A stretch of 64,000 nt of DNA. Origin: Arcobacter sp. LC1 (GTDB lineage: Bacteria > Campylobacterota > Campylobacteria > Campylobacterales > Arcobacteraceae). A program made the position numbers and the translations under genes. The DNA lies in contig JAACJU010000005.1 in the NCBI GenBank assembly GCA_021378565.1, positions 1-64,000 on the forward strand, in the 5' to 3' direction. The notes beneath the pieces were generated by a model. The model was not told the origin of the DNA. It did no database searches and saw only the letters and a program-made list of their open reading frames with translations. Below are positions 23,734 to 43,539 of this stretch, one piece after another (the first letter of the stretch is position 1; every line of letters begins with the position of its first letter).

Positions 23734-23796
23734 TTGATAGTTAAAGAAGTTAAAGCAAATGACTAAATAATTAGTTATTAAATATTATATTTAAAA

Positions 23797-23827
23797 TGCC
23801 TAGTCTTAGATTTTCTCAGACTAGGCA
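23797..23827. terminator. Bidirectional terminator between pepA and the small reverse genes
   Basis: TGCCTAGTCT (23797-23806) pairs perfectly with AGACTAGGCA (23818-23827). A-rich runs on both flanks provide U tracts in either direction, best for the reverse genes. Confidence 0.75.
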
Positions 23828-23930
23828 AAACCTAAAAAAATTTGAATCCAAATTTTTAATTTCTATAATAAGTAGATTTATATTTAGCTAGAGCTAAGCA
23901 ATGATAAGAAACCATCGCTTATGACAAATT

Positions 23931-24146
23931 CTATACAGAATAAGTACCTACAGTTCGCCCATCTGCACCAAATACATTGATTGCATGATCACCTACTTTT
24001 ACTGAAACACAGCCAGAACTAGAGCCTGTCAATTCTCCACATACGGTAAATATTTCTTGTCCTTTGGGACTATATACAAGTACGTACTCACCGCCTGATC
24101 CAATTTTGCCTCTTTGTATTGCATACCCTATTTCTTTTTTCTCCAT
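23931..24146 (-). CDS. Small hypothetical protein, paralogue of its neighbour
   Basis: 71 aa, no signal peptide or membrane segment, predicted beta-rich. It contains VYSPKGQEIF and GELTGSSSGCVSVKV, then a second VFGADGRTVGTY element, so two Y/F-x-x-x-G-R-like hairpins are joined by a GELxG turn. The neighbour at 24177-24371 has the same plan (VYDERGSRLF, GELQGFTSTTVSI, TYDAKGSSKF), so the pair arose by duplication. An AAGGAGAA ribosome site precedes the ATG. I have a vague memory of similar short proteins elsewhere but cannot name the family or function. Confidence 0.7.
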   Translation of the reverse strand: MEKKEIGYAIQRGKIGSGGEYVLVYSPKGQEIFTVCGELTGSSSGCVSVKVGDHAINVFGADGRTVGTYSV

Positions 24147-24176
24147 ATTTTCTCCTTAAATTGACTAAAAATGGTT

Positions 24177-24371
24177 TCAACTGCACTTTTTGCTGAATTT
24201 CGAACTTCCTTTTGCATCATATGTAGTTACATAAGAATCTCGTTTTATTGAAACAGTAGTAGATGTAAAACCTTGTAATTCTCCATTTTTGCTAAATAAT
24301 CGTGATCCTCTTTCATCATATACATCTACCTCAGAACCTTTTTGCACCGCACTTGCTATTTGCTTATCCAT
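24177..24371 (-). CDS. Small hypothetical protein, first of a tandem pair
   Basis: 64 aa, soluble, beta-rich. The plan is a charged N-terminus, then VYDERGSRLFSKNGELQGF, then STTVSIKRDSYVTTYDAKGS. It is paralogous to the gene 30 bp downstream at 23931-24146, and both are probably one transcript ending at the hairpin at 23797-23827. An AAGGAT ribosome site lies eight bases before the ATG. The family has no known function that I can name. The pair sits in reverse orientation inside an otherwise forward housekeeping block, which suggests insertion. Confidence 0.7.
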   Translation of the reverse strand: MDKQIASAVQKGSEVDVYDERGSRLFSKNGELQGFTSTTVSIKRDSYVTTYDAKGSSKFSKKCS

Positions 24372-24709
24372 ATTTCTATCCTTTTTTATTTATAAAATAT
24401 TCTAAATACACTAAAATATTAGACATATAGAATAATTTATAAGTTTTTATTATTAATCTTATGATGACTAATATCGGCAATCTATCCCTTTCCACTTAAA
24501 ATTTTCTTAAGTTTGCATTAAATTTTAAAAGAATTTTGTAATTTAATGTTTATAGAATAATAATTCTTATTAGAAAAAATAAAATCAAAATAATTTAAGT
24601 AAAAATTAAGTTAAAATCTTTATTTTTGTATTTAGCAAATATCTAGGGTTTTTAGCTTATAATGTGGACAATTAACTTGGACAATAAATAAAAACAACAA
24701 AGGCAGAAA
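24372..24709. other. Intergenic region between divergent small genes and ychF
   Basis: No gene was seen. It must hold the promoter of the small reverse pair (A/T-rich, no single clear box) and, near its right end, the ychF promoter. A short direct repeat, TGGACAAT, occurs at about 24665-24672 and 24680-24687, just after the ychF -10 box. Confidence 0.5.
24658..24663 (+). promoter_or_regulatory. ychF -10 box
   Basis: TATAAT preceded by TTTTTAGCT, the typical Campylobacter sigma-70 context. The start codon of ychF is 46 bases downstream. Confidence 0.6.
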
Positions 24710-26153: not shown

Positions 26154-27272
26154 ATGTTAGACCAAAAAAGAGTTATTGATAATTTTATGGAAATGGTGAA
26201 AATATCATCTCCATCTAAAAAAGAAAGAAAAATGGCAGACTACTTAACAAAAGCTTTGAATGATTTAGGGCTTGAAGTACACGAAGATAATGCGGGTAAG
26301 ATTCAAGGTGGAAATTGTGGAAATATTGTAGGGTTTTTAAAATCAAACTCTAAAAACAAAAAAACTATTTTTATAAGTTCGCACATGGATACGGTAGTTC
26401 CTTGCGAAGCAATATTTCCAATAATCGAGAATGACATAATCAAAACTGATGGAACTTCTGTTTTAGGAGGAGATGACAAAGCTGGAGTAGCAGCTATTTT
26501 GGAACTTTTAAGAGTCATAAAAGAAGACAAGCTTGAACATCCAAATTTATTAATAATATTTACAATAGCTGAAGAAATAGGGCTTTTAGGAGCAAAGGCT
26601 TTTGAAATAGAAAAATATAATGTTTCTTACGGACTTATATTAGATTGTATAGGTGAACCTGGAAATGTAATAGTAAAAGGTCCAACATGCGCATCAGGTA
26701 AGATTAAAATCACAGGAAAAGCAGCACATGCCGGAGGAGAGCCTGAAAAAGGAATAAACGCTTTATTCGTGGCAGCAAAAGCAATAGTGTCTTTAAGAGC
26801 AGGAAGAGTAGATTTCGAAACTACAGCTAATATTGGGAAAATAACTGGAGGAGAGGCTTCTAATATTGTTATGCCTGAACTTGAAATGTCTTACGAGGTA
26901 AGAAGTCTAAGTAAAGAAAAACTTGAAAATTTACTTAAAGAAACTCTTGATATTTTTGAAAAAGTTTGCAAAGAAGAGGGTGCACATTTTTCACACACTA
27001 TAAAGAAAACAGTATTTGGCTATGAGTTAGGTAGCGATGAAGAAGTAGTAAAAAATATAAAACGAGCTTGCGAAAAATTATCTTTGCCTTTTGTCCAGAC
27101 TTCAACTCCAGGGGCTAGTGATGCAAATGTCTATAATACTAAAAATATTCCAACTTTAAATCTTGCTATTGGAATGAGTAAAGTTCATACCGTAGAAGAA
27201 TTTATTAGTATAAAAGATTTGATTTCAAATGCTAATATTTTGATAGAGTTTATAAAAGGCTACAAAGAGTAA
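26154..27272 (+). CDS. PepT-like M20 metallopeptidase, copy 1 of 4
   Basis: Dizinc M20 peptidase of the peptidase T-like group, probably a cytosolic di/tripeptidase or related amidohydrolase. Metal and catalytic residues are visible: His77 and Asp79 in SSHMDTV, the bridging Asp in LGGDDKAG (107-108), Glu140-Glu141 in IAEEIGLLG, Asp164 in LILDCIGEPG, and the distal His in KVHTVEEF. The lid domain lies at about 175-285. 372 aa. It is the first of four paralogues; copies 2-4 are each followed by a membrane-protein gene, but here only a relic of one remains. It is closest in its ends to copy 4. Confidence 0.88.
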   Translation: MLDQKRVIDNFMEMVKISSPSKKERKMADYLTKALNDLGLEVHEDNAGKIQGGNCGNIVGFLKSNSKNKKTIFISSHMDTVVPCEAIFPIIENDIIKTDGTSVLGGDDKAGVAAILELLRVIKEDKLEHPNLLIIFTIAEEIGLLGAKAFEIEKYNVSYGLILDCIGEPGNVIVKGPTCASGKIKITGKAAHAGGEPEKGINALFVAAKAIVSLRAGRVDFETTANIGKITGGEASNIVMPELEMSYEVRSLSKEKLENLLKETLDIFEKVCKEEGAHFSHTIKKTVFGYELGSDEEVVKNIKRACEKLSLPFVQTSTPGASDANVYNTKNIPTLNLAIGMSKVHTVEEFISIKDLISNANILIEFIKGYKE

Positions 27273-27276
27273 GAAT

Positions 27277-27390
27277 AAAGCTCTTATGCCCTCAGATTTG
27301 ATAGGCGATTGGGAATCTTTTTATAATAAATTCATAATGATTCTAATTTTTCTTCAAATAAAATCTAGCAAAATGCTTGCTAGATTTTAG
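27277..27390 (+). pseudogene. Probable relic of the membrane-protein gene paired with peptidase 1
   Basis: Right after peptidase 1, at 27277-27330, translation gives KALMPS then DLIGDWESFYNK. The intact paralogues read KAYIPS (29148 copy) or RAFIPS (34601 copy), then about ten residues, then FLIGYWTxFPKN. At DNA level GCTCTTATGCCCTCAG resembles GCTTTTATACCCTCAG of the 34601 copy, with a gap of about 25 bases before the next match. The rest is lost and the frame ends in a terminator hairpin. The match is short, so the call is tentative. Confidence 0.45.
27360..27388. terminator. Terminator after peptidase 1
   Basis: AAAATCTAGCAA (27360-27371) pairs perfectly with TTGCTAGATTTT (27377-27388) around a five-base loop. 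Confidence 0.75.
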
Positions 27391-27997
27391 ATTACCTAAA
27401 AACCTTAATTAGTTTCAATAAGCTATATTTTGATTTCTAAAATAAACCTACGAAATAATCTATCTAGCTTTTAAATTTATTTTGATTAGCACTAAGCCAT
27501 TAAGCAATATGTTTATTATTTCTATTGGTATCGCTAAAATTACATAAAACTTTTATAAAAATAAACTTTAATAATATTTAAATAATAGATAAGATATAGT
27601 TCTTAAATTTATATCTTTTCTAGAATATTGAGTTTAAAAGTAATGATTAGTATAGGCAATATAAGTAAATATTTAAAAGTTAATATTTTAAGTATAACTT
27701 AATATTTTTTAGCTTATAATTTTTTATGAAGCTTAAAATTTAATTTTAAGAGATGCTGATAGATTGTGGTATTTACAAAATATCTAAGAACTTGTAAAAT
27801 TTAAGAGTGAAGTGCGAAACTTGTTGATACCACTTAAAAAAATCGCTTGACTTATATTTGTTTTAAGATATTTGAAGTATTTTAAAAACTATAATAAAAA
27901 AACTACAACTTCATTATTTGTTTTTCATTATCTGTAAATGCATATTATTTTGCAATTTAATGCTTCTAACTTCATTTTTTAAAATAAGGAAAAGACT
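27391..27997. other. Intergenic region before peptidase 2
   Basis: No coding frame was seen. The left part (27391-27700) is A/T-rich without recognised signal. The right part holds a -10 box and a leader element shared with the region before peptidase 4. Confidence 0.5.
27706..27900 (+). promoter_or_regulatory. Repeated promoter-leader element, copy A (before peptidase 2)
   Basis: TATAAT at 27715-27720 opens a segment similar to 33005-33215. Shared blocks in order are AAAATTTAATTTTA, a 26-base block (27788-27813; 24 of 26 bases identical to 33092-33117), AAAAAATCGCTTG and CTTATATTT. GTGGTAT (27766-27772) can pair with ATACCAC (27827-27833), enclosing the 26-base block in a long hairpin. The leader to the start codon would be about 270 bases. 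It may be a regulatory leader RNA or a small RNA. Confidence 0.55.
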
Positions 27998-29116
27998 ATG
28001 GTGAATCAAAAAAGAGTTGTTGACAACTTTATAGAAATGGTGAAGATATCATCTCCTTCTAAAAAAGAACGGAAAATGGCGGACTACTTAACAAAGGTAT
28101 TGAATGGTTTAGGGCTTGAAGTAAGCGAAGATAATGCTGGTGAAATTATTGGTGGAGATTGCGGAAATATTACAGGATTTTTAAAATCAAACTCTAAAAA
28201 TAAAAAAACAATTTTATTAAGTGCGCATATGGATACAGTAGTTCCTTGTGAAGCAATATTTCCAAAAATTGAAAATGATATTATCAAAACTGATGGTACT
28301 TCTGTTTTAGGAGGAGATGATAAAGCTGGAGTAGCAGCTATTTTAGAATTACTAAGAGTTATAAAAGAAGATAAGCTTGAACATCCAAATTTATTAATTA
28401 TATTTTCAATTGCAGAAGAAATGGGGCTTTTGGGGGCAAATGTTTTTGATATATCAAAATATAATATTAGATATGGAATCGTTCTTGATAATGCTAGCAA
28501 ACCTGGAAGAATAGTAGTTGAAGCTTCATCGCTTGCACACGGAAAGCTTAGAATCACAGGCAAAGCTGCTCATGCTGGTTTAGCACCTGAGAAAGGCATA
28601 AATGCTTTTCTTGTGGCATCTAAAGCGGTAGGAGCTTTGAGACTAGGCAAGGTTGACTTTGAGACGACTGCTAATATTGGAGCAGTACATGGTGGAGAGG
28701 CTTATAATATTGTTATGCCTGAGCTTGAGATGCTTTATGAAGCAAGGAGCCAAAATAAACAAAAACTTGATGAATTATTAAAAGAAACTTTTGATATTTT
28801 TGAAAAAGCTTGTAAGGACGAAGGCGCAAAATTTACTCATGATGTAAAAATAATTGCAAATAGCTTTGCTTTAGATGAAAATGAAGAAATTATTGAAAGT
28901 ATTCAAAAAATTATGAAAAAATTATCCCTACCTTTTGAAAAAACTAAAAGTTCAGGAGTAAGTGATGCGAATATTTATAATAATAAAAATATCCCTACTA
29001 TAAATATGGCTATTGGTACAAGTAAAGTTCATACTGTAGAAGAATTTATAAGTATAGAAGATTTAGTTATGGATGCCAAAATTTTGGTAGAATTCATAAA
29101 AAATTATGAAGATTAA
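27998..29116 (+). CDS. PepT-like M20 metallopeptidase, copy 2 of 4
   Basis: Same family and length (372 aa) as copy 1. The zinc and catalytic residues are kept: SAHMDTV, LGGDDKAG, IAEEMGLLG, LDNASKPG and KVHTVEEF. The start ATG is followed by GTG and preceded by AAGGAAAAG. It differs from copy 1 most in the substrate-facing segment after the Asp ligand (LDNASKPG against LDCIGEPG) and near the C-terminus (SSGVSDAN against TPGASDAN), so specificity may differ. The membrane-protein gene follows after 31 bp, probably in one transcript started at 27715-27720. Confidence 0.88.
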   Translation: MVNQKRVVDNFIEMVKISSPSKKERKMADYLTKVLNGLGLEVSEDNAGEIIGGDCGNITGFLKSNSKNKKTILLSAHMDTVVPCEAIFPKIENDIIKTDGTSVLGGDDKAGVAAILELLRVIKEDKLEHPNLLIIFSIAEEMGLLGANVFDISKYNIRYGIVLDNASKPGRIVVEASSLAHGKLRITGKAAHAGLAPEKGINAFLVASKAVGALRLGKVDFETTANIGAVHGGEAYNIVMPELEMLYEARSQNKQKLDELLKETFDIFEKACKDEGAKFTHDVKIIANSFALDENEEIIESIQKIMKKLSLPFEKTKSSGVSDANIYNNKNIPTINMAIGTSKVHTVEEFISIEDLVMDAKILVEFIKNYED

Positions 29117-29147
29117 GATTATAAAAAAATTAAAATAAGGATTAATT

Positions 29148-30314
29148 ATGAGTTTAACGACTGCGTTTTTTTGCGTGATTTTTGCCCTTGCTTTGGGTGA
29201 TTTCATTTCTGCAAGAACAAAAGCTTACATACCTTCGGTTTTTATCAGTGCTTTGGTTTTTTTAATAGGTTATTGGACTGTTTTTCCTAAAAACATAGTG
29301 CAAGAAATTGGTTTTATAAAACCACTTATTATTCTTTCCATATTATTTTTAGTCATTCACATGGGAACTATGCTTAGCATAAAAGAGCTATTGAAACAAT
29401 ACAAAACTGTAATTATTGCACTTTTTGCAATATTGGGTATTTGTTTTGGAACTTTAGTTATTGGAAGCTTATTTTTTCCCAATAAAATGCTAATAGCTGC
29501 TACTCCATCTTTAACTGGGGGCTTAGTTGCAGCCTTATTAATGAGCCAAGCTGCACTAGCAAAGCATCTAGAACAATTGTCAGTTTTGGCAATCTTAGTA
29601 TTTGTTATGCAACATTTTATTGGTTACCCATTAACAGGCTATTTGTTAAGATTAGAATGTAGAAGTTTACTTAAAAAATTTCGTAAAAACAGCATTGAAA
29701 TAAAAAAAGAAATAGCTCAAGAAGAACATAAAAGATTAATACCAGCTATGCCAAAAGCTTATCAAACTACTTATATTATGTTATTTAAAGTTGCGGTTAT
29801 AGCATCTTTGAGTGTTTTTATACAACATCTTTTAGGAAACTATGTATCAAAATATATTATAGGCTTAATATTAGGGGTAATAGCTGCTGAATTTGGGTTT
29901 ATAGAAAAAAAACCATTAGAAATCTCAGGAACTTTTGGTTTTTATATAACAGCTATAATGGCATTTGTTTTTGGAAATTTATCAAAAGCAAGTCCTACTA
30001 TGTTAGCTAGTTTAGCTGTGCCTTTGGTAGGCATTATCGTTTTAGGAGTAATCGGACTTTTAATTTTTGCAATAATTAGTGCAAAAGTTTTAAAACAAAG
30101 TTTTCCTATGAGTTGCGCAATTGGATTAACAGCACTTTATGGCTTTCCTTCAAATTATATATTGACATTAGAATCATCCAATGCTTTAGGGGAAACTGAA
30201 GATGAGGTGGAATTTTTAAAGGCAGAAATCTTACCTAAGATGCTTGTCGGTGGTTTTGTTAGTGTTACTATCGTTTCAGTTATTGTAGCTGGGATTTTTA
30301 TGAAATTTCTATAA
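29148..30314 (+). CDS. Polytopic membrane protein paired with peptidase 2 (transporter-like)
   Basis: 388 aa with about ten hydrophobic segments and a cytoplasmic Lys/Glu-rich loop near residues 175-200. Conserved marks across the three copies are an N-terminal SLTTAFFCVI, LFLVIHMGT, a Gly-rich TPSLTGGLVAALLMSQAA, MPKAYQTTYI, EISGTFGFY and a re-entrant-looking GFPSNYILTLE. The Gly-rich segment and the two-half layout recall secondary transporters such as the glutamate symporter GltS, but I do not recognise the family. Constant pairing with a peptidase suggests it moves the peptidase's substrate or product. AATAAGGA precedes the ATG. Confidence 0.75.
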   Translation: MSLTTAFFCVIFALALGDFISARTKAYIPSVFISALVFLIGYWTVFPKNIVQEIGFIKPLIILSILFLVIHMGTMLSIKELLKQYKTVIIALFAILGICFGTLVIGSLFFPNKMLIAATPSLTGGLVAALLMSQAALAKHLEQLSVLAILVFVMQHFIGYPLTGYLLRLECRSLLKKFRKNSIEIKKEIAQEEHKRLIPAMPKAYQTTYIMLFKVAVIASLSVFIQHLLGNYVSKYIIGLILGVIAAEFGFIEKKPLEISGTFGFYITAIMAFVFGNLSKASPTMLASLAVPLVGIIVLGVIGLLIFAIISAKVLKQSFPMSCAIGLTALYGFPSNYILTLESSNALGETEDEVEFLKAEILPKMLVGGFVSVTIVSVIVAGIFMKFL

Positions 30315-30347
30315 ACAACTTCTATTTTTCTACATACAAATAATATA

Positions 30348-30382
30348 CTAAAGCTCTTAAAAATAAGTTTTTAGGGCTTTAG
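30348..30382 (+). terminator. Terminator after the first membrane-protein gene
   Basis: CTAAAGCTCTTAAAAA can pair with TTTTTAGGGCTTTAG with one G-U pair and one mismatch, loop TAAG. Confidence 0.6.
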
Positions 30383-30528
30383 CTAAAACTTAATCTTAAA
30401 GAAATTTATTTATTAGACAAAATATGAAAGATAGAAAATAATAGTATCTGTTATCATATCTTGTATTAAAAATAATAATATGTAAAATGCTTGAAAATCA
30501 AATTTTATGTATGAAAAAGGATAAGATT

Positions 30529-31647
30529 ATGTTAAATCAAAAAAGAATTGTTGACAACTTTATAGAAATGGTGAAAATATCATCTCCTTCTAAAAAAGAA
30601 AGAAAAATGGCGGATTACTTAACAAAAGTTTTAAATGGTTTAGGGCTTGAAGTGAGTGAAGATGATGCGGGTGAAGTACAAGGTGGAAATTGTGGAAATA
30701 TTATTGGAATTTTAAAATCAAACTCTAAAAATAAAGAAACGATTTTATTAAGTGCGCATATGGATACAGTGGTTCCTTGCGAAGTTATAAATCCAATAAT
30801 TAAGAATGATATAATCAAAACTGATGGTACTTCTGTTTTGGGCGGAGATGATAAAGCTGGAATAGCAGCTATTTTGGAGCTTTTAAAAGTAATAAAAGAA
30901 GATAAAATATCACATCCAACTTTGCTAGTTGTATTTTCAATAGCTGAAGAAATTGGGCTTTTAGGAGCAAATGTTTTTGATATTGAAAAATATAATGTTT
31001 CTTATGGGCTTGTTCTTGATAATCCTGACAATCCTGGAAAAGCAGTAGTTAAAGCTTCAGCACTTGCTCAAGGTAAACTAAAAATTACAGGAAAAGCAGC
31101 ACATGCTGGGATAGAACCTGAAAAAGGTATAAATGCTCTTGTCGTGGCAGCAAAAGCAATAGGATTCCTAAGATTAGGAAAAGTTGATTTTGAAACAACT
31201 GCAAATCTTGGAACAATAAACGGTGGAGAAGCTTATAATATTGTTTTGCCTGAACTTGTAATATCTTATGAAGCAAGAAGTCAAAGCAAAGAAAAACTAG
31301 ATATTTTGCTAGAAGAAACTTTTGATATTTTTGAAAAATATTGCAAAGAAAGTGGAGCTACTTTTGAACATGATGTTAAGCTAGTTGCAAATACTTTTGC
31401 TTTGAATGAGAGCGAAGAAGTTATACAAAAAATGAAAAAAATATCTAAAAAAATGTCTTTACCTTACGAAGGACTCAAAAGTTCAGGGCTAAGTGATGCA
31501 AATATTTATAGTGCTAAAGGCATACCTACTATAAATCTAGCTGTTGGAATGAGCAAAATCCATACTGTAGAAGAATTTATAGCTATAAAAGATTTGAGCT
31601 TAAGTGCTGAGTTTTTGATTGAATTTGTTAAAGACTTAGAAGACTAG
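30529..31647 (+). CDS. PepT-like M20 metallopeptidase, copy 3 of 4
   Basis: Same family as copies 1, 2 and 4. The frame is open from an ATG at 30487, but the ATG at 30529 gives the same 372 aa and N-terminus (MLNQKRIVDNFIEMV) as the paralogues and has AAAGGAT upstream, so it is chosen. Ligand motifs are intact: SAHMDTV, LGGDDKAG, IAEEIGLLG, LDNPDNPG and KIHTVEEF. It is closest to copy 2 (both have VLDN at the Asp ligand and end in -ED). The short upstream region lacks the repeated leader found before copies 2 and 4. The membrane-protein gene follows 70 bp later. Confidence 0.88.
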   Translation: MLNQKRIVDNFIEMVKISSPSKKERKMADYLTKVLNGLGLEVSEDDAGEVQGGNCGNIIGILKSNSKNKETILLSAHMDTVVPCEVINPIIKNDIIKTDGTSVLGGDDKAGIAAILELLKVIKEDKISHPTLLVVFSIAEEIGLLGANVFDIEKYNVSYGLVLDNPDNPGKAVVKASALAQGKLKITGKAAHAGIEPEKGINALVVAAKAIGFLRLGKVDFETTANLGTINGGEAYNIVLPELVISYEARSQSKEKLDILLEETFDIFEKYCKESGATFEHDVKLVANTFALNESEEVIQKMKKISKKMSLPYEGLKSSGLSDANIYSAKGIPTINLAVGMSKIHTVEEFIAIKDLSLSAEFLIEFVKDLED

Positions 31648-31717
31648 ACTCAAAAGTATCAAAAATAAGATTTAAATAATAAGATGAATATTCAAAATTT
31701 TAAAATAAGGATTTATT

Positions 31718-32884
31718 GTGAGCTTGACAACTGCATTTTTTTGTGTAATTACTGCCCTTGCTGTGGGTGATTTTCTTTCGGTTAGAACTAGGGGTATGAT
31801 TCCCTCGCTCTTTGTTAACGCCGTATTATTTTTAGTAGGTTATTGGACTATTTTTCCTAAAAATATTATTGAGCAGATTGGTATCGTAAAACCTATTAGT
31901 TTTTTTGCACTAATATTTTTGGTTATCCATATCGGAACAATGCTAAGTATAAGAGATTTAATAAGAGAATATAAAACTGTAATTATTTCTCTTGTTTCGA
32001 TTTTGGGCATTTGTTTTGGAACTTTGGTTATTGGAAGTTTATTTTTCCCAACCAAAACGCTAATAATTGCAACTCCACCTCTAGCAGGAGGTTTGGTAGC
32101 AACCTTACTTATGAGTCAAGCGGCTATTGCTAGGCACCTTGACCAATTAGCAGTTTTAGCAATTTTGGTTTATGTTATGCAAACTTTTGTTGGCTATCCT
32201 TTAACATCTATTGCTTTAAAATTTGAATGTAAAAGCTTGCTTAAAAAATTTCGTAACCATGAGATGGAAATAAAAAAAGAAGAGGTTAAAAAAGAGAGTA
32301 AAAAGCTAGTTCCTGCTATGCCAAAAGCCTATCAAACTACTTATATTATTTTGTTCAAAATGTCAATTTTAGCATCTTTGAGTGTATTTTTAGAATACCT
32401 TAGTGGAAATTATGTTTCAAAATATATCATAGGTTTAGTGCTTGGAGTTATTGCAGCTGAGCTTGGATTTATTGAGCGAAAACCGCTTGAGATTTCAGGA
32501 ACTTTTGGTTTTTATATGACAGCTTTGATGATTTTTGTTTTTGGTAATTTATCTAAAGCAAGTCCTACTATGGTTATGAACTTATTTTCATCTTTTGTGG
32601 GCACAATTGTTTTAGGAGTTATTGGACTTTTGATTTTTGCTTTGATTAGTGCAAAAGTCTTAAAACAAAGTATACCTATGTCTTGTGCTATTGGATTAAA
32701 TGCACTTTATGGTTTTCCTTCAAATTATATTATGAGCCTAGAAGCAGCAAATACTTCAGGAAAAAATGAAGAAGAAGTAGAGTTTTTAAAAAGTGAAATA
32801 ATACCGAAGATGCTTATCGGTGGTTTTGTAAGTGTGACTATTGTGTCTGTTATTATAGCTGGAGTTTTTGTAAAATTTTTATAA
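31718..32884 (+). CDS. Polytopic membrane protein paired with peptidase 3 (transporter-like)
   Basis: Paralogue of the genes at 29148 and 34601; 388 aa. The start is GTG, with AATAAGGA upstream as in the other two. The N-terminal half is the most divergent of the three (for example SVRTRGMIPSLFVNAVLFLVGYW). The segment from MPKAYQTTYIILFKM to the first ISGTFGFY is almost identical to the 34601 copy, which points to gene conversion between copies. About ten membrane segments; family not recognised. A perfect hairpin terminator follows at 32889-32922. Confidence 0.75.
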   Translation: MSLTTAFFCVITALAVGDFLSVRTRGMIPSLFVNAVLFLVGYWTIFPKNIIEQIGIVKPISFFALIFLVIHIGTMLSIRDLIREYKTVIISLVSILGICFGTLVIGSLFFPTKTLIIATPPLAGGLVATLLMSQAAIARHLDQLAVLAILVYVMQTFVGYPLTSIALKFECKSLLKKFRNHEMEIKKEEVKKESKKLVPAMPKAYQTTYIILFKMSILASLSVFLEYLSGNYVSKYIIGLVLGVIAAELGFIERKPLEISGTFGFYMTALMIFVFGNLSKASPTMVMNLFSSFVGTIVLGVIGLLIFALISAKVLKQSIPMSCAIGLNALYGFPSNYIMSLEAANTSGKNEEEVEFLKSEIIPKMLIGGFVSVTIVSVIIAGVFVKFL

Positions 32885-32888
32885 AAAT

Positions 32889-32922
32889 ACACAAGCTAAA
32901 TTTTAAAATATTTAGCTTGTGT
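32889..32922. terminator. Terminator after the second membrane-protein gene
   Basis: ACACAAGCTAAA (32889-32900) and TTTAGCTTGTGT (32911-32922) form a perfect 12-bp stem with a 10-base A/T loop. Confidence 0.8.
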
Positions 32923-33004
32923 GTAAAATTTGAGCTTAAAAGTACATTTTATAAAGACTATACAAATAAAATTGTGCAAAGTCTAGCCTTTTAAGAAACT
33001 TTTA

Positions 33005-33215
33005 ACCTTTTTTGGCTTATACTTTTACTGAAGTTTGAAAATTTAATTTTAGGAGCTACTTGTGGATAGTGACATGCGTATGATACTTATTGAACTTGTA
33101 AATTCTAAGAGTGAAGTATAAAACTTTTTATTCAGAACTAAAAAATAACATCTAGCAAAAAATCGCTTGTCTTATATTTTAATTTAGAATATTTAAGACA
33201 CTTTAAAACTACAAG
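33005..33215 (+). promoter_or_regulatory. Repeated promoter-leader element, copy B (before peptidase 4)
   Basis: TATACT at 33018-33023 follows TTTTTGGCT. The blocks shared with 27706-27900 are in the same order: AAAATTTAATTTTA, the 26-base block (33092-33117), AAAAAATCGCTTG (around 33160) and CTTATATTT. Spacing between blocks differs by about 16 bases, so the blocks, not the whole stretch, seem to be kept. ATACTT and AAGTAT flank the 26-base block and could pair. The leader to the start codon would be about 400 bases. Confidence 0.55.
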
Positions 33216-33430
33216 AAATCACTTTTATTATAAAAGAAAATAAAACGCGATATTAGTTTTACTTTTTGTTTATCTTGCGTTCATAATACAAGTAAGATAA
33301 AACTTTTATAATAAAATTTATATACAAAGCATAAAGGATAAGAAATAATATTATCTGCTTTGCTATATTTTAAATACATACTACAAGCAAATAAAGACTC
33401 AAACTTCATTTTATCTATAAAAGGAAAAAT

Positions 33431-34558
33431 ATGTTAGACCAAAAAAGAGTTATTAATAATTTTATGGAAATGGTGAGAATATCATCTCCTTCTAAAAAAG
33501 AAAGAAAAATGGCAGATTATCTAACAAAAGTTTTAAGTGATTTGGGACTTGAAGTAAGCGAAGATAATGCAGGCAAGATTCAAGGTGGAGATTGTGGAAA
33601 TATTATTGGATTTTTGAAATCAAATTCGAAAACTAAAAAAACTAAAAAAACGATTTTTTTAAGTGCGCACATGGATACGGTAGTTCCTTGCGAAGCAATA
33701 TTTCCAAAAATCGAAGACGATATAATCAAAACTGATGGAACTTCTGTTTTAGGAGGTGATGATAAAGCTGGAATTGTAGCAATTTTGGAGCTTCTAAGAG
33801 TCATCAAAGAAGATAAACTCGAACATCCAAATTTATTAATAATATTTACAATAGCTGAAGAAATTGGGCTTTTGGGTGCAAATTCTTTTGAAATAGAAAA
33901 ATATAATGTCTCTTATGGAATTATACTAGACTGCTCTGGTTCACCTGGAAAAGTGATTGTCAAAGCTCCATCTATTGCACAAGGTAAGCTTAAAATCACA
34001 GGAAAAGCAGCTCACGCTGGAATAGAGCCTCAAAAAGGTATAAATGCTCTAGTTGTTGCCTCAAAGGCTATAAGTGCTTTACAATTAGGAAAAGTTGATT
34101 TTGAAACAACTGCGAATCTTGGGACTATAAACGGTGGAGAGGCTTATAATATTGTAATGCCTGAACTTGAAATATCATATGAAGCAAGAAGTCAAGACAA
34201 AAATAAACTTGATGCCTTATTAAAAGAAACTTTTGATATTTTTGAAAAAACTTGTAAAAAAGTTGGTGCTAGTTTTGAGCATAGTGTAAAAATAGTTGTA
34301 GATGGTTTTATGATAGATGAAAATGAAGAAGTGGTACAAAAAGTAAAACAAGCTTGTGAAAATTTATCTTTGCCTTATGAGCAGATTGAAACTTCAGGGG
34401 CAAGTGATGCCAATGTTTATAATCATAAAAATATTCCAACGCTAAATCTTGCTATTGGAATGAGTAAAGTTCATACCGTAGAAGAATTTATTAGCATAAA
34501 AGATTTAATTTCAAATGCTAAAATTTTGATAGAATTTATTAAAGTTTATAAAGAATAA
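33431..34558 (+). CDS. PepT-like M20 metallopeptidase, copy 4 of 4
   Basis: 375 aa; three residues longer than the others because of a repeated KTKKTKK near residue 68. Ligand motifs are intact: SAHMDTV, LGGDDKAG, IAEEIGLLG, LDCSGSPG and KVHTVEEF. The first 15 codons, the ribosome site and the last 40 codons closely match copy 1, while the middle (GKLKITGKAAHAGIEP, NLGTINGGEAYNIV) matches copy 3. It therefore looks like a mosaic of the other copies. The paired membrane-protein gene starts 42 bp downstream. Confidence 0.88.
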   Translation: MLDQKRVINNFMEMVRISSPSKKERKMADYLTKVLSDLGLEVSEDNAGKIQGGDCGNIIGFLKSNSKTKKTKKTIFLSAHMDTVVPCEAIFPKIEDDIIKTDGTSVLGGDDKAGIVAILELLRVIKEDKLEHPNLLIIFTIAEEIGLLGANSFEIEKYNVSYGIILDCSGSPGKVIVKAPSIAQGKLKITGKAAHAGIEPQKGINALVVASKAISALQLGKVDFETTANLGTINGGEAYNIVMPELEISYEARSQDKNKLDALLKETFDIFEKTCKKVGASFEHSVKIVVDGFMIDENEEVVQKVKQACENLSLPYEQIETSGASDANVYNHKNIPTLNLAIGMSKVHTVEEFISIKDLISNAKILIEFIKVYKE

Positions 34559-34600
34559 AAAAGATATACAATAAATAATAAAATAATATAAGGACTAATT

Positions 34601-35779
34601 ATGAGTTTGACGACTGCATTTTTTTGCGTGATTTTTGCCCTAGCAATAGGCGATTTTATTTCTATAAAAACAAGAGCTTTTATACCCTCAGTTTTTATAA
34701 GTGCTTTAGTGTTTTTGATAGGCTATTGGACAATATTTCCTAAAAATATATTAGAACAAATTGGATTTATTAAACCAATTATTTTCTTTTCAATGCTATT
34801 TTTAGTAATTCACATGGGAACTTTGCTAAGTATAAAAGATTTGCTAAGACAATACAAAACTGTAATTATTGCACTTTCCTCAATCGTAGGTATTTGCTTT
34901 GGAGTTTTAATTTTTGGAAGTTTATTTTTTCCTATGAAAACTTTAATAATTGCTACACCACCTTTAACAGGGGGATTAGTAGCAGCTTTGCTTATGAGCC
35001 AAGCAGCAATGGCTAAACATCTTGAAACTTTGTCAGTTTTGGCAATTTTAGTTTATGTTATGCAAGGTTTTATTGGCTATCCTTTGACAGCTTTTATGCT
35101 AAGACTTGAGGGTAATAAATTACTTAAAAAATTCCGTGCAAAAGAGCTTAAAACAAAACATATAAATCTTCATGAAGAGCTTGATAAAAAAAATAAAACA
35201 TTGATACCAGCTATGCCAAAAGCTTATCAAACTACTTATATTATTTTATTTAAAATGTCAATTTTGGCAAGTATCAGTGTATTTTTAGAATACCTTAGTG
35301 GCAATTATGTCTCAAAATATATTATAGGTTTAGTGCTTGGAGTTATTGCAGCTGAACTTGGATTTATTGAGCGAAAACCACTTGATATTTCAGGAACTTT
35401 TGGTTTTTATATTACTGCTTTGATGGCTTTTATTTTTGGAACTTTAGCTAAATCAAGCCCTGCGATGTTAGCTAACCTTGCCGTGCCTTTTATAAGTATT
35501 ATTATTTTAGGAGTTATTGGACTTTTGATTTTTGCCTTAATAAGTGCAAAAGTGTTAAAACAAAGTTTGCCTATGAGCTGCGCAGTTGGCTTAAATGCAC
35601 TTTATGGTTTTCCACCAAATTATATTCTAACACTTGAAGCTGCGAACGCTTTAGGAAAAAATAAAGAAGAGGTTGAGTTTCTAAAAGAAGAAATTTTGCC
35701 TAAGATGCTTGTAGGTGGTTTTGTAAGTGTTACTATTGTTTCAGTTATTGTGGCTGGGATTTTTGTAAAATTTTTGTAA
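34601..35779 (+). CDS. Polytopic membrane protein paired with peptidase 4 (transporter-like)
   Basis: 392 aa, the longest of three paralogues owing to a few extra residues in the cytoplasmic loop near residues 180-200 (ELKTKHINLHEELDKKNK). Its N-terminal third follows the 29148 copy (SVFISALVFLIGYW), the middle follows the 31718 copy (ILFKMSILASISVFLEYLSG), and the C-terminal third returns to the 29148 type, a mosaic pattern. It keeps TPPLTGGLVAALLMSQAA and ends GIFVKFL. Function unknown; transport linked to peptidase 4 is inferred. A terminator at 35832-35863 closes the array. Confidence 0.75.
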   Translation: MSLTTAFFCVIFALAIGDFISIKTRAFIPSVFISALVFLIGYWTIFPKNILEQIGFIKPIIFFSMLFLVIHMGTLLSIKDLLRQYKTVIIALSSIVGICFGVLIFGSLFFPMKTLIIATPPLTGGLVAALLMSQAAMAKHLETLSVLAILVYVMQGFIGYPLTAFMLRLEGNKLLKKFRAKELKTKHINLHEELDKKNKTLIPAMPKAYQTTYIILFKMSILASISVFLEYLSGNYVSKYIIGLVLGVIAAELGFIERKPLDISGTFGFYITALMAFIFGTLAKSSPAMLANLAVPFISIIILGVIGLLIFALISAKVLKQSLPMSCAVGLNALYGFPPNYILTLEAANALGKNKEEVEFLKEEILPKMLVGGFVSVTIVSVIVAGIFVKFL

Positions 35780-35831
35780 GTTTTTGTAAAATGCTTTTAA
35801 AATTTTAGCTTATTGAGGATTTAACAAGTTT

Positions 35832-35863
35832 GGCAAAATGTAGATTTAACGCTATATTTTGCC
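35832..35863. terminator. Bidirectional terminator closing the array
   Basis: GGCAAAATGTAG (35832-35843) pairs with CTATATTTTGCC (35852-35863), 12 pairs with one G-U, between convergent genes. Confidence 0.7.
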
Positions 35864-35918
35864 TATATAAATATAAATAATTTGATAAAAATATATTAAG
35901 AATTTAAGCTACTTAATC

Positions 35919-36395
35919 TTAATCGTATAATTCTTCTTTTCGAACTACCATTTCTATATCCATTATCACAAGCATTTGATTGTTAGCTAGTCTTACATAA
36001 CCTTTAAGATATTGTGATGGAATGGCTGAACCCATTTGCGAAACAGGCGCTAAAGTGCTAATGTCTATCTTTTGAACATCATCAACTTTGTCAACTACTA
36101 TGCCCATCATTCGTTTATCGCTAGTTACTACTGCAATCACGGCTGTATTGGTGTCATAAACTATATCTCCTGTGCAAAATCTAATTCGTATGTCTAATAT
36201 TGGTACAACTTCACCTCTTAGATTAATCAAGCCTTTTACCCATTTTGTAGTATTTGGTAGTTTTGTTACCGCTTCAGGATATGTTAAAATCTCTCTAATT
36301 TTTGGTAATTCTATAGCGTATTTCATACTTCCTAGTTCAAAAGTCATATATTCATAAGTCGCCATTTCTGCTTTATCTAAAATATTATTTGCCAT
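35919..36395 (-). CDS. CheW-like chemotaxis coupling protein
   Basis: Single CheW domain of 158 aa. The signature is clear: YAIELPKIREILTYPEAVTKLPNTTKWVKGLINLRGEVVPILDIRIRF, which is the part that contacts receptors and the CheA P5 domain (described here by its start at about residue 27 and end near 75). Residues 80-150 form the second beta barrel, with GIVVDKVDDVQKI. No other chemotaxis gene is near. It may be the main coupling protein or a second one; the window cannot decide. Its own promoter should lie in 36396-36595. Confidence 0.88.
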   Translation of the reverse strand: MANNILDKAEMATYEYMTFELGSMKYAIELPKIREILTYPEAVTKLPNTTKWVKGLINLRGEVVPILDIRIRFCTGDIVYDTNTAVIAVVTSDKRMMGIVVDKVDDVQKIDISTLAPVSQMGSAIPSQYLKGYVRLANNQMLVIMDIEMVVRKEELYD

Positions 36396-36595
36396 AAGGA
36401 CTCCTACTTTTAAGACTTACATTATACGAAATATTTGCAAAATTTAGCTTAAGGTTCTGAAATAAGTAAAGGTATTTTATTTCTAAATATTTTAGATATT
36501 TTTTATTTCTTGCATTTTAAATGATTTCAAATATTATTATACCTTAAACGTTGTGCTTGTTATGTCTTATATTTATCTTTTTTTGTATATCTTCT

Positions 36596-37240
36596 TTAAA
36601 ATGCCATGATGTGCAAACTATCACAATTTACTAAGTGATTTTTTAGCTTATCTTTTTTTGTAATAATATTAATTTTATTTTTATAATAATAGCACTGTTT
36701 AAAACCTTTATCATTATAAAGTTTTTTATAATATGCTATTGGCACTGCTATTTTATCTTTTCCTATTTTCTTTGGATTGTTGCCATATATTACTCCAATT
36801 ACTACTTTTATATTCCCAAATTTAACTGCAAGTTTTCGCTCTAACTTCTCTGTTTTAATCCAAGTATATCTATTTATAGATGGATATTGTGGGATAATAT
36901 TAGCCATACTATAAGCTTTGTGAAGTGATTTTTTGCTGTAATCTGCACTTGCATCAGATAATAAATGCCCTCTGTCAAATCCACTTTTTATATAATCTTT
37001 TGGACTATTTCTATATTTGATTGGTATAATTTTTTCAGTATAAAAATTTTGTCTTTTTTTAATATTTAAACTATTAACTAACTTTCCATTTAAAGTATAT
37101 GATACAAATAAAGCACCCTTGTTTTTGTAGCTATAGCAAACTTTATAAATTTTCTTATTTATAATTAGACTACAGTTTTTAAATTTATTATTTGCAGATA
37201 CTACTAAAATAAATGCAAATAATATAGTTATAACTTTCAT
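36596..37240 (-). CDS. Secreted DNA/RNA non-specific endonuclease
   Basis: 214 aa with a signal peptide (about residues 1-16, MKVITILFAFILVVSA). The catalytic DRGH motif is in SGFDRGHLLSDA at about residues 91-94, and the metal-binding Asn is in NRYTWIKTEKLERKL, with the family segment YSMANIIPQ between. This is the NUC1/Endonuclease_NS fold of Serratia nuclease and NucA. Likely periplasmic or secreted, degrading foreign or environmental DNA and RNA. In C. jejuni, related dns-type nucleases carried on integrated elements block natural transformation. The start is 1 bp from the stop of the upstream gene. Confidence 0.9.
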   Translation of the reverse strand: MKVITILFAFILVVSANNKFKNCSLIINKKIYKVCYSYKNKGALFVSYTLNGKLVNSLNIKKRQNFYTEKIIPIKYRNSPKDYIKSGFDRGHLLSDASADYSKKSLHKAYSMANIIPQYPSINRYTWIKTEKLERKLAVKFGNIKVVIGVIYGNNPKKIGKDKIAVPIAYYKKLYNDKGFKQCYYYKNKINIITKKDKLKNHLVNCDSLHIMAF

Positions 37241-37241
37241 A

Positions 37242-38189
37242 TTATTTTAAATTGCAATATCTGTACCAAGTATCTAGTGCTTTTCTTTCTTTTGTATTTA
37301 TAAAAATTTTTTTACTACAATAAGTATGAATATCTCTTTCATCTGATAATATATTCCATATGTTTCCACAAATATTTTTTCTTTTTGTGAGCTTAATCTT
37401 AACCATTAAATTCATCTGTTTCTTGTCCATGTAAAATATTTTTTTCTTTTCGTTGCATTGTTTATTATTTTTTTTGATTTTAAACTTTTTTGTTAATAAA
37501 GTAAAATTTTTACCCTCTAATACAACTTTGATATTTTTTAATACCATAGTATCATCTTCATTGTCAGCGTTAGTAAGCGTAGTGTTGATGACAATCACAG
37601 CTTTTTTTGCTATTTTATTGTATTCCTTAAATCTTATTTTTAAGTCATATTTATTGTCAGTGTAATTGTACCTTTTATCATTAAAAACAGATGAAATATC
37701 TATAGGATGATTAAAATTTTTACGCTTTTTACTGTCATATTCATATCCTTTTTTTATTACATTTTTTTGGATAGATAATGAAATCCAATCAACATTATCT
37801 TGCAATAAAGTTATGGTGACTGCTTGCCTTCTGTATAGTGTATTTGCATTATCACTTACAGTTATTGAATTAATTTTTATATTATCATTTTTTATATTAT
37901 CATTTGAATCTTCTGAATTTGTGCCGATAACTATCATAAGAATAATAAACAAAATTAAAATAAATATAGTTATTAATAATATTTTTTTAAATGACATATT
38001 TGTTGATGCTTTCTTTTGCCTGTCTTCTAATTTTATTTTAAATCTAGCATAGCTAGAAAAACCATTATCTTTATATTCGACAAATTCCCAACCATTTAAA
38101 GCATAATCTTCTTTTGTTTGCTCCAATAATTCCAATCTGCTATTTTCTCTGAATGCCGTAATTGCAACTTTTTTAAATTTCCAACCCAT
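37242..38189 (-). CDS. Membrane protein with DUF4177-like N-terminus
   Basis: 315 aa. Residues 1-45 (MGWKFKKVAITAFRENSRLE then LNGWEFVEY) fit the small DUF4177 pattern, in which a beta hairpin is followed by GWE. A single membrane segment spans about residues 69-90. The remaining 225 residues are probably extracytoplasmic, Lys/Asn-rich and beta-rich, with several Cys toward the C-terminus (CNEKKK, CGNIW, CSKK, YCNLK). Function unknown. It lies 1 bp upstream of the secreted nuclease in the same orientation, so the two are probably co-expressed. Confidence 0.7.
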   Translation of the reverse strand: MGWKFKKVAITAFRENSRLELLEQTKEDYALNGWEFVEYKDNGFSSYARFKIKLEDRQKKASTNMSFKKILLITIFILILFIILMIVIGTNSEDSNDNIKNDNIKINSITVSDNANTLYRRQAVTITLLQDNVDWISLSIQKNVIKKGYEYDSKKRKNFNHPIDISSVFNDKRYNYTDNKYDLKIRFKEYNKIAKKAVIVINTTLTNADNEDDTMVLKNIKVVLEGKNFTLLTKKFKIKKNNKQCNEKKKIFYMDKKQMNLMVKIKLTKRKNICGNIWNILSDERDIHTYCSKKIFINTKERKALDTWYRYCNLK

Positions 38190-38213
38190 CTTAAACTCCT
38201 AAGATAATATAAA

Positions 38214-38269
38214 AACTAACCATAGTTAGTTGTATGAAAATTATATATTTTTTATACTTATAGTTAGTT
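38214..38269. promoter_or_regulatory. Candidate operators in the divergent promoter region
   Basis: AACTAAC-CATA-GTTAGTT at 38214-38231 is a perfect dyad. The half-site ATAGTTAGTT recurs at 38260-38269, just before the XRE gene, and TATAG/CTATA flanks it. The region separates the XRE gene from the membrane protein/nuclease pair, so the XRE protein may control both. Confidence 0.5.
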
Positions 38270-38289
38270 TAGCTATAGGTAGGTAAAAT

Positions 38290-38544
38290 ATGAAAAATTG
38301 TAATATCTCAGATGATAAAATGATTAAAATCTATAAAAATATAGGCTTAAATGTAAAAAGAATTAGAAACGAAAAAAAAATATCTCAGTTAGCTTTGTCT
38401 CTAGCTATTGGGCATAAGGCTGTGGGAACTGTGTCAATGGCTGAAATATATTTAAATAATAAACATTTTAATGTTGAGCATTTAGTAAAAATTGCCGATG
38501 TGCTAGAGGTGGATATTTGTGATTTTTTTAAATTTCCCGATTAG
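38290..38544 (+). CDS. XRE-family (Cro/CI-type) transcriptional regulator
   Basis: 84 aa, essentially one helix-turn-helix domain. The segment GLNVKRIRNEKKISQLALSLAIG covers helices 1-2, and VEHLVKIADVLEVDICDFFKF is the typical end of an HTH_3 domain. It is divergent from the membrane protein/nuclease pair with a dyad repeat between them, so it is likely an autorepressor and controller of that pair. Small XRE regulators of this kind are common on mobile islets. Confidence 0.85.
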   Translation: MKNCNISDDKMIKIYKNIGLNVKRIRNEKKISQLALSLAIGHKAVGTVSMAEIYLNNKHFNVEHLVKIADVLEVDICDFFKFPD

Positions 38545-38662
38545 TATTGGTAAAAATTTTAAGGAGAAGGAATAGAATTTATAGTTTATTTTTTTATTGA
38601 AAAGTCAAGATTATTAATTCATTAAGTTTTTGTTTTAGATGATATTATAGAAATAGTATATA

Positions 38663-39055
38663 TGGTGGAGGTGTGGGAAATCGAATCCCAGTCCTAAACC
38701 CACTACTACTAGCGTCTACATGTTTAGAGGAGTTGTAAAATTTCACTTTCTTCAAACACAACTCGCAAAGCAGAGAAAAAAGCTAAGATTTTAAATGTCC
38801 CTAAAAAGTCAAATCAAGTCTTTAAAGGTAATCTATCAAGGATGAACCTCTGTAATTCTGCTTAGATAGAATATGCAGCAAAGGTCTCCTGGTCTCAAGC
38901 CCCTAAGGGCGAGTCCATGATAAACCTACGCGATTCTCGCGTAAGCTGGAGCGTAATTTTTATTATTTGCGTCTAAAAAATTTGAACTTTTTAAAAGTAG
39001 TTCACACTTACATGCAACTAATCCTCGTGACTCCAGTCGAAGCCAAGTCACCCCC
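38663..39055 (-). ncRNA. ssrA: Transfer-messenger RNA (tmRNA)
   Basis: Rescues stalled ribosomes. The 5' end reads GGGGGTGACTTGGCTTCGAC and the 3' end CACCTCCACCA; these pair as a seven-base acceptor stem with one G-U, and the T-arm contains TTCGATT. CCA is encoded. The tag frame is 38970-38926 and encodes ANNKNYAPAYARIA followed by TAG, close to the C. jejuni tag ANNVKFAPAYAKAA as I recall it. The length is about 393 nt, one-piece form. The 3' end faces the XRE/nuclease islet. Confidence 0.95.
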
Positions 39056-41597: not shown

Positions 41598-42425
41598 ATG
41601 AAAAAAAAAGCGCACAAGAAAAAAGTACAAATTTGGATTAAAAAAGAAGACTTGGAGTATCAAAAAGAATTAAGAGTTTTGCAAATTGAACTTTTAAAAC
41701 TACAAAGGTACTCAAAAGAAAAAGGGCTTAAAATGCTTGTGCTTTTTGAGGGGCGAGACGCTGCTGGTAAGGGTGGAACTATCAAAAGAGTGATGGAGCA
41801 TTTAAATCCAAGGGGCGCAAGAGTTGTAGCTTTGGAAAAGCCAAATGACAAAGAGCAGGGGCAATGGTACTTCCAAAGATATATAAGCCATCTTCCAAGT
41901 GCTGGTGAGTTGGTATTTTTTGATAGGTCTTGGTATAATAGGGCAGGAGTTGAGCCTGTTATGGGATTTTGTACACCAAAAGAGCATAAGGAATTTTTAA
42001 TTCAAGTTTGCGAATTTGAAAAAATGCTTGTAAATAGTGGGATTATTTTATTGAAATTCTATATTTCAGTGTCAAAAGAAATACAAGCTAAAAGATTTAA
42101 AAAAAGAGAGCTTGACCCTTTGAAGCAGTATAAATTGTCTCCTGTGGATAAGAAATCTCAAAAATTGTGGGATGAATACACTAAGGCTAAGTATTCTATG
42201 TTAAAGGCAAGCCATACAAATATAGCGCCTTGGATTGTGCTTAAAAGTGATGATAAACAAAGAGCTAGACTAGAATGTATAAAGTGTATCTTGGATAATA
42301 TAGCTTATAAAGATAAAATAGAAAAAATAAAGTTTGATAAAAATATAATATCTTCAGGAGAAGATGAGATTAAAATTATGGAAAAAGAAATTAAAGCATT
42401 GAAGGGCGCAGATGAAATTAAGTGA
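41598..42425 (+). CDS. Polyphosphate kinase 2 (PPK2), single domain
   Basis: Transfers phosphate from polyphosphate to nucleoside diphosphates (or the reverse). The Walker A motif FEGRDAAGKGGTIKR is near residues 50-64, followed by the lid module YFQRYISHLPSAGELVFFDRSWYNRAGVEPVMGF, in which Walker B is FDRSWYNR. 275 aa with one PPK2 domain fits class I. The C-terminus has an extra Lys/Glu-rich stretch of about 35 residues. It overlaps the next PPK2 gene by 14 bp, so the two are coupled. Confidence 0.93.
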   Translation: MKKKAHKKKVQIWIKKEDLEYQKELRVLQIELLKLQRYSKEKGLKMLVLFEGRDAAGKGGTIKRVMEHLNPRGARVVALEKPNDKEQGQWYFQRYISHLPSAGELVFFDRSWYNRAGVEPVMGFCTPKEHKEFLIQVCEFEKMLVNSGIILLKFYISVSKEIQAKRFKKRELDPLKQYKLSPVDKKSQKLWDEYTKAKYSMLKASHTNIAPWIVLKSDDKQRARLECIKCILDNIAYKDKIEKIKFDKNIISSGEDEIKIMEKEIKALKGADEIK

Positions 42426-43539
42426 TTTTGAAAAAACTAAGTATTCTGGTCTTTATGTATCAAAAAAAACACATCCTATTTATGGCGATAAATTTATTTT
42501 GCGTTTTCAATACAATAGAAAAAGACATGTAAAAGTCATAGGATATACAAATAAAGATAGCCTAAGTTTGGAAAAAGCTTATAAAGTTTTGCAAGATTAT
42601 AAAACTTCTTTGCAAAAAGAAGAACCTATGGGACAGTTTTTAAATGCCAAAGAAGGGCTTGTTAGATTTAGTAAAAATTCGCAAAATCTTGATAATATCG
42701 TAAATGAATACAAAAAAATGAAAGGTATTTTAGGAACTTATAAAAATCTAAATACCGTAACATTAAGAGAAGGTATTCAAAAAATATATGATTTGGAAGA
42801 AATAAAATCTTACCAAATTGAGCTTATAAAGATGCAAAATTATTTAGAAGCTACAAATAAAAAAGTGATTATTTTGTTTGAAGGAAGAGACGCATCAGGT
42901 AAGGGTGGGGCGATTAGACGGATTACAAGATATATGAACAACAAACACTACAGAGTTGTCGCTCTTGGTAAACCAAGCGATACACAAAAATCTCAGTGGT
43001 TTTTTCAAAGATATATTGAACATTTTCCAACAGGTGGGGAAGTGGTTTTGTTTGATAGGTCTTGGTATAATCGAGCTATGGTTGAGCCAATTTTTGGTTT
43101 TTGTACTAAAAAAGAATATGATATTTTTATGGAAGATGTAAATAATTTTGAAAGAGATTTAGTTCGTCAAGATATTATTTTGGTTAAGCTGTATTTCTCA
43201 GTTTCAAAAGATGAACAGTTGCGAAGGTTTGAGCGAAGAATGAGTGACCCTCTTAGGCAATGGAAACTAAGTGAGGTAGATTTGCAAGCTCAAGATTTAT
43301 GGAAAGAGTTTTCAGATAAAAAATATGAAATGCTAAAAAGAACAAGTTCAAATCTTAGTCCTTGGCATATTGTAAGAAGTGATGACAAGCATAAAGCTAG
43401 GGTTGAAGCTGTAAAAATTATTTTAAATTCGTTAGATTATGATGAAAGAGATGTAAATCTTGATTATAAGGCGAATGAAAAAATAAATATTTCTATTCAA
43501 AAAGAATTAGCAAGAATGAGAAAAAATCAAGATTATTAA
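42412..43539 (+). CDS. PPK2 with extra N-terminal integrase-arm-like domain
   Basis: 375 aa. The kinase part (about 125-360) has Walker A FEGRDASGKGGAIRR, FDRSWYNRAMVEPIFGF and the C-terminal SPWHIVRSDDKHKAR, so it should be active. The first 80 residues are not part of PPK2. They read GLYVSKKTHPIYGDKFILR, then YNRKRHVKVIGY and LSLEKAYKVLQDYK, a beta-beta-beta-alpha plan like the arm-binding domain of tyrosine recombinases. Residues 80-125 form a helical linker. The ATG lies inside the end of the first PPK2 gene. Confidence 0.92.
   Translation: MKLSDFEKTKYSGLYVSKKTHPIYGDKFILRFQYNRKRHVKVIGYTNKDSLSLEKAYKVLQDYKTSLQKEEPMGQFLNAKEGLVRFSKNSQNLDNIVNEYKKMKGILGTYKNLNTVTLREGIQKIYDLEEIKSYQIELIKMQNYLEATNKKVIILFEGRDASGKGGAIRRITRYMNNKHYRVVALGKPSDTQKSQWFFQRYIEHFPTGGEVVLFDRSWYNRAMVEPIFGFCTKKEYDIFMEDVNNFERDLVRQDIILVKLYFSVSKDEQLRRFERRMSDPLRQWKLSEVDLQAQDLWKEFSDKKYEMLKRTSSNLSPWHIVRSDDKHKARVEAVKIILNSLDYDERDVNLDYKANEKINISIQKELARMRKNQDY

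Follow-up and report, generated by a model that had tools for sequence, protein, structure and literature searches.

In E. coli, the AbgT carrier and a hydrolase are responsible for the uptake and cleavage of p-aminobenzoyl-glutamate (PMC6002978). We analysed a stretch of 64,000 nucleotides of Arcobacter sp. LC1 (contig JAACJU010000005.1, positions 1 to 64,000 of the forward strand; the window means this whole stretch) and detected a tandem array of four genes for PepT-like M20 metallopeptidases (P1-P4) and three genes for membrane proteins (T2-T4). The array suggests a logic like that of abgABT, where an amide-linked amino acid enters through a secondary carrier and is cut in the cytoplasm by an M20-clan hydrolase (AbgA and AbgB are M20D amidohydrolases); the carrier in the window is a different, unnamed one. 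AbgT belongs to a different family and fold (PF03806), which T2-T4 do not match; the enzyme in the window is PepT-like, and the genes stand in tandem units, a multiplication that is unusual.

Carriers of the CitS/GltS fold type move small carboxylates. The CPA/AT re-entrant fold type is listed for DUF819 and Glt_symporter (PMC8396727). We suggest that the array is a horizontally acquired and amplified module that imports and hydrolyses short peptides or N-acyl amino acids, with a probability of about two in three (0.68).

Peptidase and membrane protein array

The seven open reading frames (ORFs) lie on the + strand and are all intact, with the number, lengths (372-375 and 388-392 aa) and positions reported in the initial annotation. 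The array consists of the following features:

26154..27272, + strand: P1, PepT-like M20 metallopeptidase, 372 aa, without a transporter partner (TIGR01883 339.5 bits; metal ligands invariant)
27359..27389, + strand: RNA hairpin 3' of P1, terminator-like (-14.5 kcal/mol, z -4.2)
27584..27898, + strand: spacer homologous to the post-T3 spacer at 32886-33218 (68% over 337 columns, 86.9 bits)
27998..29116, + strand: P2, PepT-like M20 metallopeptidase, 372 aa (TIGR01883 335.1 bits)
29148..30314, + strand: T2, predicted CPA/AT-like transporter, 388 aa (no Pfam family; family profile)
30348..30382, + strand: RNA hairpin closing the P2-T2 unit (-13.4 kcal/mol, z -2.3)
30529..31647, + strand: P3, PepT-like M20 metallopeptidase, 372 aa (TIGR01883 332.3 bits; start from alignment and ribosome-binding site)
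31718..32884, + strand: T3, predicted CPA/AT-like transporter, 388 aa, GTG start (73% identical to T2)
32887..32924, + strand: RNA hairpin closing the P3-T3 unit (-19.6 kcal/mol, z -6.5)
33431..34558, + strand: P4, PepT-like M20 metallopeptidase, 375 aa (TIGR01883 340.2 bits)
34601..35779, + strand: T4, predicted CPA/AT-like transporter, 392 aa (AlphaFold2 pLDDT 87.8 with 73 homologues; Foldseek to CitS)
35832..35863, + strand: RNA hairpin closing the P4-T4 unit (within the fold of 35780-35870, z -3.6)

The P3 start is given as 30487 in the ORF list; the start aligned with the paralogues is 30529, preceded by AAGGATAAG. The gaps inside the pairs are 31 bp (P2-T2), 70 bp (P3-T3) and 42 bp (P4-T4), the range given before. 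The order of peptidase and then membrane gene, described as constant, holds for three of the four peptidases; P1 is followed by 725 bp without a membrane gene.

The peptidases share 69-80% and the membrane proteins 73-77% protein identity, with 76-83% identity among the copies at the nucleotide level. Since synonymous divergence (dS) is 0.5-0.9 and the ratio of nonsynonymous to synonymous divergence (dN/dS) is 0.19-0.32, the copies are old and maintained, under purifying selection. Assembly duplication was rejected because the copies are just 76-83% identical in DNA, and pseudogenes were rejected because every ORF is intact at this dN/dS. The surroundings are ordinary Campylobacterota sequence, and contamination was rejected because the array sits behind pepA-ychF, an adjacency that recurs in relatives.

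Stable hairpins were detected 3' of P1, T2, T3 and T4 and none between the genes of any pair, suggesting that each pair is probably one transcription unit. Of the terminators proposed between the pairs, the hairpins are there at every unit end; most of them are without a good T-tract, and the consensus terminator scan marks just one, in minus-strand orientation (in the AT-rich DNA here, the consensus promoter and terminator scans are by themselves uninformative). The Rfam search of the array found no RNA.

A transporter remnant 3' of P1 was sought by tblastn and none was detected. The P1-P2 spacer from 27584 matches the spacer that starts 1 bp after the T3 stop, scoring 86.9 bits where none of 500 dinucleotide shuffles exceeded 39.2 bits, and opens with a weak hairpin (27586-27622, -10 kcal/mol, z -1.8). 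Because of this likeness, a transporter copy probably once stood between P1 and 27584 and has since been lost; alternatively, a spacer-peptidase-transporter unit was inserted behind P1.

Carrier family and its hydrolase partners

T2-T4 match no Pfam family, and no Pfam model is above threshold for any of 73 family members; at E of 1 or less, neither T2-T4 nor the 73 members match PF03390 (2HCT), PF03616 (Glt_symporter) or PF03806 (AbgT). For DUF819 (PF05684, gathering score 27 bits), T2-T4 show no match at E of 1 or less, and the best matches among relatives are below threshold (1.2e-4 at 21.7 bits, and 2.4e-4). The family has no known role that would set the membrane protein apart from the peptidases. 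Literature searches turned up no account of such a carrier paired with M20 or hydantoinase enzymes, although one may exist elsewhere.

The fold was predicted by an AlphaFold2 model of T4 from an alignment of 73 sequences (pLDDT 87.8); the model from the three window copies alone was useless (pLDDT 38) and was discarded. The T4 model has 10 helices and two re-entrant hairpins in two five-helix repeats, the hairpins broken at the conserved motifs TPPLTGG and ALYGFP, one per repeat. The best Foldseek matches in the PDB are CitS structures (E 3.4e-5, template modelling score up to 0.62), with weaker matches to the NhaP/NapA antiporters; viral structures gave nothing, and the PDB sequence profile gave chance matches only. 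Two five-helix repeats with a hairpin each define the CPA/AT re-entrant fold, and here they are found in a model, not in a solved structure. From this model, T2-T4 are predicted to be secondary transporters with that fold. They share the 10 helices, two re-entrant hairpins and two repeats with CitS/2HCT and Glt_symporter/ESS and differ from both in their hairpin motifs and in the absence of a PF03390 or PF03616 match. DUF819 has the same fold type (PMC8396727), and one family member matches it below threshold (1.2e-4), whereas the window proteins do not match it and the hhalign probability of the transporter family against DUF819 is just 30%.

A profile scan of candidate stretches from one genome collection (GTDB) detected 438 transporter relatives, and the neighbourhoods of the best 80, a set biased to close relatives, were compared. 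An M20 hydrolase adjoins 76 of these 80, and in 75/80 an M20D and/or hydantoinase-type M20 gene is directly downstream; in one locus (L080), a Sapep/PepV-type M20 dipeptidase is directly upstream. Puniceibacterium and three Paenisporosarcina loci have no M20 neighbour. By genus label, the pairing with M20-type hydrolases holds for 37/39 and is conserved across phyla. The family members on two contigs labelled Lokiarchaeota and Chryseobacterium (L052 and L116) stand in the tree among Clostridia or Bacillus relatives, and the contigs are probably mislabelled.

Because of the bias of the best-80 set, we used 291 evenly sampled Clostridia genomes, with 20 full-length transporter copies. Fifteen of the 20 are beside an M20 gene (one of them separated by a YitT gene), three are beside Amidohydro_1 enzymes resembling Xaa-Pro dipeptidase, and two have neither. 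A hydrolase of small amides therefore adjoins 18/20 Clostridia copies, and T2-T4 each stand directly after an M20 gene. M20 adjacency by chance is estimated at about 1% per gene, and even at 3% the 15/20 result gives p < 1e-18. Plasmid records repeat the pairing, although one more distant Cetobacterium homologue has no such hydrolase neighbour. Second transporter copies in several genomes obey the rule too, except one Fusibacter copy. Membrane homologues that are mostly unpaired, which would have spoken against the proposed module, were thus not the rule.

The usual partners elsewhere are M20D amidohydrolases and the hydantoinase/carbamoylase type, not PepT-like enzymes. Among the 31 PepT-like loci outside Campylobacterota, three Clostridia loci (L160, L161 and L163) have AbgT beside the enzyme, and one, in Clostridia genome G530, pairs it with DUF819 (L200 / L182). 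The G530 pair suggests that DUF819 may also carry peptides or acyl amino acids. One further Clostridia genome (L153) has PepT-like, YitT and transporter genes in a row, and in Fusibacter a PepT-like gene is convergent beside a transporter-M20D pair. Since the PepT pairing is rare while other hydrolases are the usual partners, it is the transporter, not PepT, that defines the module, with an enzyme that can be exchanged.

Proposed function and alternatives

P1-P4 pass the TIGR01883 PepT-like cut-off of 274.25 bits with 332-340 bits and are below the cut-off of 285.75 for the peptidase T equivalog TIGR01882 (72-84 bits). The zinc ligands were reported as intact, and the metal ligands and catalytic acids (H77, D79, D107, E140, E141, D164 and H345) are indeed invariant in P1-P4 and 31 homologues. 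P1-P4 start with MLDQKRV and have no signal sequences, so they are predicted to act in the cytoplasm.

Behind the Asp ligand, the residues differ as quoted before (LDCIGEPG, LDNASKPG, LDNPDNPG and LDCSGSPG). G167 in this loop, invariant in the family, is replaced by S in P2 and by D in P3; P2 and P3 both have S in place of P177, P4 has Q in place of E198, and positions 319 and 321, by the SDAN motif, differ among P1-P4. These five positions never or hardly vary in the 31 homologues, and at several of them P2/P3 and P1/P4 share states. PepT-like peptidases elsewhere are mostly without this transporter, and P1-P4 carry the unusual residues in two loops. In the carriers, Q84E in T3 and P121S in T2 are changes at family-invariant positions. 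Such changes support, but do not prove, functional divergence of the peptidase copies and may reflect specialised units; the idea of different substrates gains only indirect support from them.

Gene-dosage amplification, with four units sharing one substrate and the copies merely raising flux, would fit copies that are all intact, of the same architecture and with dN/dS of about 0.2, and tandem arrays often serve dosage. We regard it as unlikely: the copies are down to 69% identical and changed at family-invariant residues (G167, P177, 319 and 321; P121S in T2 and Q84E in T3), and every unit comes with a separate leader and a hairpin at its end.

In the import-and-hydrolysis module that we propose, T2-T4 would bring in small amides that bear a carboxylate, either short peptides or N-acylated amino acids, probably as ion-coupled elevator carriers like CitS or GltS, the ion coupling being suggested by the fold. 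P1-P4, as cytoplasmic dizinc M20 enzymes, would cleave the amide bond, and the released amino acids would go to catabolism. The initial annotation left uptake or export plus hydrolysis side by side; the pairing and the transporter fold support such a module, and uptake appears much likelier than export because peptidases without signal sequences act in the cytoplasm and the substrate must enter. The partner classes (N-acyl and N-carbamoyl amino acid hydrolases, dipeptidases and PepT-like enzymes) have the R-CO-NH-CHR'-COO- chemistry in common, and M20D enzymes, carbamoylases and PepV act on small molecules, in which they cleave an amide that adjoins a free alpha-carboxylate. This common chemistry, the cytoplasmic enzymes and the carboxylate-carrier fold together suggest that short peptides or N-acyl amino acids are imported. 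Short peptides are favoured as the cargo in this array because the partner is PepT-like. No POT/PTR2 peptide transporter was found in the host genome.

Several points weigh against this proposal. The substrate and transport proposed for family members are predictions from sequence and model, and sequence homology to the named CPA/AT families is weak, leaving the superfamily assignment to a model. The transporter is beside 0/31 PepT-like loci outside Campylobacterota, which makes the PepT pairing an exception. The peptidase is first here versus the transporter first in nearly all relatives.

Export or detoxification, in which the carrier would expel a toxic compound (an acyl amino acid or a product of hydrolysis) while the peptidase would guard against its precursor, is improbable. 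Direction is not readable from sequence, and the CPA/AT relatives include exchangers such as AspT and NhaP, which also appear among the weaker Foldseek matches; however, the best fold match is a Na+-coupled importer, and the partners are catabolic amide hydrolases across several phyla. Still less probable is folate-fragment salvage by p-aminobenzoyl-glutamate import and cleavage, as E. coli AbgT and its hydrolase do (PMC6002978). The 3/31 Clostridia loci with PepT-like beside AbgT are in its favour, but T2-T4 are not AbgT carriers (no PF03806 match), a vitamin-level need poorly explains four units, and the partners include N-carbamoyl-type and PepV-type enzymes. Adjacency from shared duplication history alone, with an unrelated role of the membrane protein, would agree with the 0/31 PepT-like loci of other genomes and is very improbable given the M20-type neighbours in 37/39 genera and the unrelated M20 subfamilies that fill the partner role.

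More broadly and tentatively, the carrier family may be widespread importers of dipeptides and N-acyl amino acids with freely exchanged partners (M20D, hydantoinase type, PepV, PepT-like and Amidohydro_1), multiplied here into channels that run in parallel for different cargo, with carrier and enzyme co-diverging. A carrier family of 438 relatives without a Pfam model gains a testable function from the genes that constantly adjoin it. Dipeptides and acylated or carbamoylated amino acids may be among the cargo, and few bacterial importers of such compounds are known. The array also provides natural carrier and enzyme variants side by side for reading specificity.

Origin and neighbouring genes

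In a survey of 397 Campylobacterota genomes, the transporter (by profile) and a TIGR01883 enzyme above cut-off each occurred in this genome only; neither gene was found in the 396 others. In the trees, T2-T4 form a clade next to Cetobacterium transporters (98 SH-aLRT; 56-62% identity), and P1-P4 form one clade on a long stem. Judged by this distribution and the trees, the module is foreign to Campylobacterota, horizontally acquired and then amplified; the donor was probably Fusobacteriota or a common donor. An amino-acid acquisition trait would thus have entered Campylobacterota from a Fusobacteria-like source. The Cetobacterium transporter has an M20D partner, not a PepT-like one.

Upstream of the array, about 1 kb between pepA and ychF (23734-24709) has no listed ORF of at least 100 aa; the two genes are near each other in several related genomes. 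The region 3' of the array (35919-39055) carries cheW, a non-specific DNA/RNA endonuclease (PF01223), a 315 aa familyless protein and a small helix-turn-helix gene beside the tmRNA gene. Its DNA is 25% GC, possibly an island at ssrA. Further downstream, two adjacent PPK2-like polyphosphate kinase paralogues, identified by eye, overlap by 14 bp (41598-43539), and a WG-repeat protein (PF14903) is encoded beside a radical-SAM gene and a glycosyltransferase gene (54410-55102).

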